64,000 bases of DNA. Source: Microbacteriaceae bacterium. Its GTDB lineage: Bacteria > Actinomycetota > Actinomycetes > Actinomycetales > Microbacteriaceae. Location: positions 1-64,000 of the forward strand of contig JAIXXG010000107.1 of NCBI GenBank assembly GCA_027490915.1, written 5' to 3'. Within the stretch, counting starts at the first letter, position 1; each line of letters starts with the position of its first letter. Of this stretch, positions 20,925-23,167 are shown in pieces. The notes under the pieces are model-generated. The model saw nothing but the letters and a program-made list of their open reading frames with translations, was not told where the DNA came from and made no database searches. The translations under genes were made by a program, and so were the position numbers.

Positions 20925-21953
20925 ATGCGAACCCCGGTCGACTACGTGCGCGGCGTGCGGCACCCCGAGGCCTTCCACGGGCGGGGTGTGCACCGCGGCT
21001 ACTTCGAGGGCTGGTACATCAAGCTCGTGTCGGCCGACCGCTCGCAGCGGTGGGCGGTCATTCCGGGGGTGTTCCGCGGGCTGGCCGAGGCGGGCTCTGC
21101 TGGCAAATCCGGCGAGCGTGACGAGGCGTTCGTGCAGGTGCTCGACGGCCTGACGGGGCGCAGCTGGTACCACCGGTTCGACCCCGCCGACTTCGAGGCG
21201 GCGAGCGACCGGTTCGCGGTGCGCGTCGGCGGCAACACCTTCTCGCCGGAGGGGGTCACGCTCGACCTGCCGCAGCTGCGGGGCAGCATCCGGTACACCA
21301 CCGCACTCGACCCCTGGCCGGTGACGCTGCGCGAACCGGGAATCATGGGGTGGTACGGGCTCGTGCCGTTCATGGAGTGCTTTCACGGCATCGTCTCGTT
21401 CGGCCACGGGCTGGCGGGCGAGCTCGAGGTCGAGGGCGCGCCGCGCAGCTTCGACGGCGGCCGCGGCTACATCGAGAAGGACTGGGGCCAGGCCTTCCCG
21501 GCCGGCTACGTGTGGATGGCGAGCAACCACATCGACGCCCCCGACGGCTCCGACACGGGGGCATCGCTCATCGGCTCGGTCGCGATCATCCCGTGGCTGG
21601 GCGGGTCGTTCCGCGGTTTCATCGTCGGGCTGAAGCACGGCGGAAGGCTGCACCGCTGGACCACCTACACCCGCGCCCGCGAGCGGCGCCTCGAGATCGA
21701 CGACAGCCACGTGCGCTGGACGATCGAGGGCCGCGACGGCGTGCTCGAGCTCGAGGCCGAGCGGGTGCGCGGCGGGCTGCTGCACGCTCCGCTGCGTACC
21801 GCGATGCACCAGCGGGTCGAAGAGACGCTGGATGCCCGCATCACGCTGCGCCACCGCGACGCCGAGGGCCGCACCCTGCTGGAGGGTACGGCCCACGCGG
21901 CGGGTCTCGAGGTGTTCGGCGATACCGACCGGCTACTCGGGCTTCGCGCCTGA
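20925..21953 (+). CDS. Tocopherol cyclase-like protein
   Basis: FEGWYIKLVSAD, RSFDGGRGYIEKDWGQAFPAGYVWMASNHI pattern. Confidence 0.8.
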   Translation: MRTPVDYVRGVRHPEAFHGRGVHRGYFEGWYIKLVSADRSQRWAVIPGVFRGLAEAGSAGKSGERDEAFVQVLDGLTGRSWYHRFDPADFEAASDRFAVRVGGNTFSPEGVTLDLPQLRGSIRYTTALDPWPVTLREPGIMGWYGLVPFMECFHGIVSFGHGLAGELEVEGAPRSFDGGRGYIEKDWGQAFPAGYVWMASNHIDAPDGSDTGASLIGSVAIIPWLGGSFRGFIVGLKHGGRLHRWTTYTRARERRLEIDDSHVRWTIEGRDGVLELEAERVRGGLLHAPLRTAMHQRVEETLDARITLRHRDAEGRTLLEGTAHAAGLEVFGDTDRLLGLRA

Positions 21954-23030
21954 CCCAGAGTCGCCCGACCCGTCGCCATCGGCGTCGCTCGCGCCGCTCG
22001 GCGCTGCGGCGACGGCCGCGACGCGGCGGCGGCGGCGGAACACCGGCTCCGCCTCCGCCTCCTCCTCCGGCGTCGCGATGCGGAACGGGGGAGCGTTCTC
22101 GACCTCGACGGCGTGACGCCCCTGCCCGCGGGTGGCCCGCAGGCTCGTGATGATCGAGATCGCGATGATCACTGCCACGACACCGAGCGAGACGCTCGTG
22201 GGGATCTTGTAGACGTCGAGCAGCAGCATCTTGATGCCGACCCAGATGAGCACGAACGCGAGGCCGAGCTTCAGGTAGATGAAGCGGTGCATGAGGTCGG
22301 CGAGCAGGAAGTACATCGCGCGCAGACCCAGGATCGCGAAGGCGTTCGCCGTGAACACGATGAACGGCTCGCTCGTGACCCCGAAGATGGCGGGGATCGA
22401 GTCGACGGCGAAGATGATGTCGGTCACTTCGACGAGCACCAGCACGGCGAGCAGCGGGGTGGCGACGATGACGCCGGCCTTGCGGATGAGGAACTTCTGC
22501 CCGTGGTACGCGTCGGTCATCGGCACGAAGCGCTTGAAGAGCTTCAGGATCTTCGAGTTCGCGACATCCATGTGCTCGTTGCGCTTCCGGATCATCACGT
22601 AACCCGTGTAGAGCAGGAAGGCGGCGAAGACGTAGAGGATCCACGAGAACTGGTCGATCAGCACGGCGCCGAGGGCGATGAAGATCGCGCGGAACACGAG
22701 AGCGCCGATGACGCCGAGGAAGAGCACGCGGTGCTGGAACTCGCGCGGCACCCCGAAGAAGGCGAAGATGATCGCCCAGACGAACACGTTGTCGACGGCG
22801 AGCGACTTCTCGATGAGGTAGCCGGCGTAGTACTGCTGGCCCAGCTCGGCCCCGTACTCCCACCAGATGTAGCCACCGAAGGCGACGCCCAGCGTCACCC
22901 AGATGATCGACCACACGGCGGCTTCGCGCACGCCGATGACGTGCGCTTTTCGGTGGGCGAAGAGGTCGATAGCGAGCATCGCGAGGATGACGCCGAGCAC
23001 GGCCAGCCAGAGCCAGAGGGGAACGTCCAC
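21933..23030 (-). CDS. TerC/Alx family membrane protein
   Basis: EYGAELGQQYYAGYLIEKSLAVDNVFVWAIIFAFFGVPREFQHRVLFLGVIGALVFRA, DIIFAVDSIPAIF; GTG start. Confidence 0.95.
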   Translation of the reverse strand: MDVPLWLWLAVLGVILAMLAIDLFAHRKAHVIGVREAAVWSIIWVTLGVAFGGYIWWEYGAELGQQYYAGYLIEKSLAVDNVFVWAIIFAFFGVPREFQHRVLFLGVIGALVFRAIFIALGAVLIDQFSWILYVFAAFLLYTGYVMIRKRNEHMDVANSKILKLFKRFVPMTDAYHGQKFLIRKAGVIVATPLLAVLVLVEVTDIIFAVDSIPAIFGVTSEPFIVFTANAFAILGLRAMYFLLADLMHRFIYLKLGLAFVLIWVGIKMLLLDVYKIPTSVSLGVVAVIIAISIITSLRATRGQGRHAVEVENAPPFRIATPEEEAEAEPVFRRRRRVAAVAAAPSGASDADGDGSGDSGSGAKPE

Positions 23031-23037
23031 GGAGGAT

Positions 23038-23167
23038 CTCCTGAATCGGTGAGGGTTCAGGAGGTCTCTCCCAGCGCTCCGATCGGTGACCGGTGCGCCC
23101 TCGCTGCCGGCCGCGCATGAGCGCGACGCAATGACGACAACGGGCGAAGACGGGGATACTCCCCTCC
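23038..23167 (-). ncRNA. Candidate yybP-ykoY (Mn2+-responsive) riboswitch plus anti-SD expression platform upstream of terC
   Basis: On minus strand 5' GGAGG-GGAGTA (23167-23157) and 3' AGAGACCTCC (23069-23060) match the conserved ends of the class; GGAGG/CCTCC closes P1; downstream hairpin CTCCTGAA/TTCAGGAG contains the SD. Confidence 0.75.

Follow-up and report, generated by a model that had tools for sequence, protein, structure and literature searches.

The window, a stretch of 64,000 nucleotides from a Microbacteriaceae bacterium, contains on its minus strand a terC/alx-type gene (23030–21933) that starts with GTG and encodes a protein of 365 residues. The product matches Pfam TerC with E=1.9e-53 and scores 415 bits against the NCBIfam model TIGR03718 (R_switched_Alx), for which the cut-off is 246. 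A gene on the plus strand at 20928–21953, tocopherol-cyclase-like by Pfam (E=2.7e-17), converges on terC, and terC may be monocistronic. Upstream of terC lies a structured leader, all parts of which are given below in minus-strand coordinates. A direct check of the sequence finds its motifs base for base where the original prediction of a manganese riboswitch had placed them, together with the GTG start and the 7-nt spacing of the Shine–Dalgarno (SD) sequence.

Orthologues across the genus and in further families of the same order share this leader. In an alignment of 20 orthologous leaders made by sequence alone, RNAalifold recovers helices P1.1, P1.2, P3 and P3.1, all showing compensatory changes, and P4 was placed by eye. 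Both sides change in 23 of the 27 pairs of the structure so named, and 90.4% of the cells pair, against 72.3% in shuffled and at most 52.3% in slid controls. R1, a covariance model built solely from relatives of the terC leader on this 20-leader structure, finds the leader in the 64-kb window with 84.3 bits (E=2.6e-18) and gives no other match there below E=0.2. When 92 leaders are fitted to R1, standard pairs fill 93.7% of the cells (67.6% when shuffled), 25 of the 27 pairs show compensatory double changes, doubly changed cells number 588 against 178, and the covariation score is 0.632 against 0.193 for shuffled and at most 0.122 for slid alignments; this larger alignment leans to R1 by construction, and the 20-leader alignment rests on sequence only. 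Loops L1 and L3 are near-invariant among the 92 leaders, while the helices vary freely.

The helices of the yybP-ykoY class, P1.1, P1.2, P3, P3.1 and P4, are all present around the junction, as are the class motifs L1 (GGGGAGUA ... AGACC) and L3 (GUCA...CG / CCGG) with the Mn2+-contacting adenine. The switch helix P1.1 is formed by GGAGG (23167–23163) and CCUCC (23064–23060), whose pairing covaries; it is 97.4% paired in the 92 leaders, with double changes in three of its five pairs. The original prediction had this pairing right but called the helix P1, where the published name is P1.1. Next to it, the 5′ strand of L1, GGAGUA (GGAGTA in the DNA; 23162–23157), is identical in all 92 leaders at five of its six positions and in 88 at the remaining one. 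P1.2 joins UCCC (23156–23153) to GGGA (23072–23069), with double changes in 4/4 pairs and 95.9% pairing. Within 23163–23153, GGGG of L1 could also form a local hairpin with CCCC of P1.2 (GGGGAGUAUCCCC), which may compete when no ligand is bound.

The P2 helix of the four-way junction seen in crystal structures was not encountered in the terC leader. Its place is taken by the linker CGUCUUCG (23152–23145), in which a vestige of at most 2 bp can be drawn; P2 thus appears from the sequence to be absent or vestigial, as in the E. coli alx leader. The linker measures 3–8 nt in 83 of the 92 leaders, and a clear P2-like hairpin is present in one locus (L125). P3, the internal loop L3 and P3.1 together occupy 23144–23099, with P3 strands at 23144–23138 and 23106–23099 and P3.1 strands at 23127–23121 and 23116–23110. 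All 13 modelled pairs of this arm show double changes, and the energy fold agrees. In the 5′ strand of L3, UCGUCAUUGC (23137–23128), the A, C and G are each found in 92/92 leaders; A23132, the key adenine, is the counterpart of A41 in Lactococcus lactis and A48 in Xanthomonas oryzae, which contact Mn2+ in crystal structures (PMC6754395). Two positions upstream of this adenine, 84 leaders have U and 8 have A. The 3′ strand of L3, CCGG (23110–23107), is kept in 87–91 of the 92 leaders per position, and C23110 also closes P3.1. The P4 hairpin follows at 23098–23074 (double changes in 5/5 modelled pairs, 90% paired) and is seen in the energy fold as well. A conserved 3′ block, GGGAGAGACCTCC (23072–23060), then combines the 3′ strands of P1.2 and L1, GGGA and GAGA (23072–23065; AGA of L1 in 91–92 of 92 leaders per position), with that of P1.1.

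A probable extended −10 element, TGA-TTCACT (23183–23175), lies 7 nt upstream of the aptamer, and a similar TGN with a T-rich hexamer is kept in most leaders of the genus. Across the 92 leaders, a TANNNT hexamer stands 7–10 nt before the aptamer in 48, against 0–12 in other 4-nt bins. This spacing suggests that transcripts probably start at P1.1, and here the RNA would probably begin at the first base of that helix or about 1 nt from it. The extended −10 element is overlapped by a dyad, AATCAC-GAAAT-GTGATT (23195–23175), with a counterpart in the genus (GTGAAGTGTGCTTCAC in L010); it may serve as an operator, perhaps of a repressor that responds to metal.

A search with the Rfam 15 model RF00080, proposed with the original prediction, did not bear it out. 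This model of 177 positions matches nothing in the window at its gathering score and nothing in the leader even at E≤10; on the whole genome it gives no match at the position of the leader, and all of Rfam together with RF00080, run with limits of E=10 and E=1 on the window and 12 relatives, returned nothing relevant. The same model, however, also fails at E≤1 on the E. coli alx leader, which is reported to respond to Mn2+, and it scores mntP at 41.6 bits, under its own 45-bit cut-off (alx and mntP test loci, L032 2377–2499 and L033 1962–2058). RF00080 is thus a narrow model, and little weight attaches to its failure here. In one sample of the phylum it exceeds its cut-off in 1 of 398 genomes, compared with 87 of 398 matched by R1 at E≤0.01; in a control set it passes in 2 of 14 genomes, and Corynebacterium glutamicum gives a match. 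Weak RF00080 matches fall at R1-type loci (L047, with 23.0 bits, G084 and G387), and R1 recovers all 10 of the RF00080 places tested across the phylum, among them the single one above the RF00080 cut-off. The missing match is a property of one model and not of the yybP-ykoY class. The class assignment had been staked on an RF00080 match or on conservation of L1 and L3, and it is the conservation that is found.

The closest characterised relative is the leader of E. coli alx (the PRE element), which responds to Mn2+ and to alkaline pH (PMC9603457). R1 matches it, in the annotated E. coli record, with 51.4 bits (E=3.2e-11), the sole match in 8 kb at E≤10, and this match together with the near-invariant loops upholds the assignment of the terC leader to the yybP-ykoY (Mn2+) class. 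The two leaders share L1 GGGGAGUA, L3 UCGUCAUUACG/CCGG, the GAGACC segment, the lack of P2 and an Alx/TerC gene downstream. Since P2 is missing from the alx match too, it is not taken as class-defining. The alx leader is longer, with extra hairpins between aptamer and start codon, whereas in the terC leader P1.1 and the anti-SD strand overlap directly, about 35 nt or less from the start. The mntP-like members of RF00080 share L1, GUCA in L3, GAGACC, the gene context and reciprocal weak matches, but L3 of mntP reads GUCAACAUACU and R1 does not match mntP. The L. lactis and X. oryzae aptamers have the switch helix P1.1 in common with the terC leader (PMC6754395) but are built on a four-way junction with P2. 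Their L3 sequences, UCA41 and ACA48, contain the same key A, and both the U and the A variant occur among the 92 leaders. By its published description, the leader of C. glutamicum terC (cg2157) is also alike: an earlier Rfam release predicted a yybP-ykoY element upstream of that gene at 49.1 bits, and a transcription start has been observed there (PMC3890552). No separately named "terC motif" was found in the literature.

The overlap of P1.1 with an anti-SD strand, on which the predicted switch depends, is real. The strand CUCCUGAA (DNA CTCCTGAA; 23063–23056) shares 23063–23060 with P1.1 and forms eight Watson–Crick pairs with the SD strand UUCAGGAG (DNA TTCAGGAG; 23045–23038), the ribosome binding site 7 nt from the GTG at 23030–23028. 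In folding of both states, the ligand-free pairing probability of this helix is 0.98, the unliganded fold of the leader is the OFF state, and the ON-constrained state is 12 kcal/mol worse when folded through the start codon. Pairing of the 5′ segment GGAGGGGAG with codons 4–7 in the minimum-energy fold is attributed to chance, as it is marginal in 1 of 57 leaders (this one, p=0.05).

Counterparts of the anti-SD helix were sought by pairing the P1.1 3′ strand and the bases that follow it with the downstream strand, against mononucleotide shuffles. Such a helix is significant (p≤0.05) in 54 of the 92 leaders, against an expectation of about 5; all 54 use the P1.1 3′ strand, and the partner usually lies just before the start codon, as in CCUUCGGUAC/GUACCGAAGG (L031), CCUUCAACUG/CAGUUGAAGG (L040) and CCUCCGGCAG/CUGCCGGAGG (L088). 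The remaining 38 leaders have no significant helix by this simple test. A base of the SD, picked by position only, tracks the variable base of P1.1: C goes with 28 G and 3 A, and U with 5 G and 9 A (Fisher p=3e-4, relatedness ignored; leaders of the own genus, with the register shifted by one, lie outside the count). The P1.1 3′ strand thus has two alternative partners, the P1.1 5′ strand and the SD strand, and these tend to vary in step. In ligand-free folding the downstream sequence takes most of the P1.1 3′ strand in 53 of 57 leaders. For the terC leader, the energy model keeps the P1.1 population low (0.02–0.25) even before the SD is synthesised. Switching must therefore rest on docking energy and co-transcriptional folding, which the model ignores.

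The leader of about 140 nt is thus very probably an alx-type yybP-ykoY (Mn2+) riboswitch that acts on translation. The proposed translational switch holds in the comparative tests, in which P1.1 and the anti-SD helix covary, while its ON direction and the binding of Mn2+ by this RNA are presumed by homology. Transcription would start about where the aptamer begins. At low Mn2+, CUCCUGAA would pair with UUCAGGAG and block ribosome loading. At high Mn2+, the ion would bind between L1 and L3, so that the two legs of the aptamer dock and P1.1 (GGAGG/CCUCC) is stabilised; P1.1 would then take CUCC from the anti-SD helix and free the SD. TerC/Alx protein, for which Mn2+ is the presumed substrate, would be made, and Mn2+ removed or otherwise handled. 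The terC gene of this genome thereby gains a well-supported control mechanism and a likely signal: the switch probably turns on a manganese-handling membrane protein at high manganese.

Here and elsewhere, the element is followed mostly by genes for the export or handling of Mn2+. Downstream genes were assigned by tblastn, the longest-ORF method being unsuited to GC-rich loci, and TerC was found in 63 of the 90 leaders with downstream DNA. Ten non-TerC loci were classified by Pfam as three GDT1, two P-type ATPases, one Na/Ca exchanger, one M50 peptidase, one SAICAR synthetase and two without a family; the other non-TerC loci, by sequence inspection, have mostly P-type ATPases or GDT1/UPF0016. 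In all, the element stands upstream of Mn2+/cation transporters of three unrelated types. Two genomes from the same family have, downstream of the element, proteins of about 290 residues with no Pfam match (L036 1658–2521, plus strand; L053 582–1457, minus strand); they look alike by eye and are possibly unknown Mn2+-related genes. A site-2-protease-like gene (M50, CBS) lies downstream in L063 (1609–2811, plus strand), and a gene in L105 resembles it by eye; such genes are not the usual targets of the yybP-ykoY class.

Blocked translation exposes the RNA to Rho in some riboswitches. Control of terC might likewise be mainly transcriptional, with a block of translation leading to pausing or Rho-dependent termination, and the Mn2+ riboswitch of L. 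lactis does control transcription (PMC11087558). The terC leader contains no intrinsic terminator, however, and its switching strand covaries with an SD that lies 7 nt from the start codon, which makes this reading of a yybP-ykoY aptamer quite unlikely. A sensor of pH or of another divalent metal more than of Mn2+ is suggested by alx itself, the best characterised match, with its dual response to alkaline pH and Mn2+ (PMC9603457). The invariance of the L3 motif and its Mn2+-contacting adenine, and the Mn2+/cation transport members of all three downstream families, argue against such a sensor, and we regard it as very unlikely. Still harder to sustain is the notion of a protein-bound conserved leader, or of a degenerate aptamer that binds no metal and leaves only the SD hairpin acting. 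The missing RF00080 match and the missing P2 would fit it, but the class-specific loops are near-unchanged in 92 leaders whose helices vary freely, and Mn2+-responsive alx likewise lacks P2 in the aligned match; this notion is exceedingly improbable.

The translational Mn2+ switch preferred here is of a known kind. Modestly new are this instance, the failure of the current Rfam model across the phylum and an architecture that lacks P2. Owing to the narrowness of RF00080, Mn2+ switches are probably under-annotated before genes for TerC, GDT1 and P-type ATPases. The alx-type three-way junction would lend itself to direct comparison with its four-way counterpart. That the alx-type leaders of the phylum constitute a P2-less three-way-junction sub-class, unseen by Rfam and with a metal or pH response measurably unlike that of four-way aptamers, seems unlikely.

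Elsewhere in the genome R1 reveals this riboswitch a second time, about 4.4 kb past the end of the window (G000:C94:68443–68538, plus strand; L074 1944–2039). No further copies were found: weaker matches begin at E=0.67, and one that was inspected lies in apparent coding sequence; the sequence upstream of the TerC gene on contig C48 has no R1 match. The second copy precedes another Alx-type TerC gene. Taken by itself, its anti-SD helix of 6 bp falls short of significance; its P1.1, CAAGG/CCUUG, and its SD strand, CCAAGG, have changed together.
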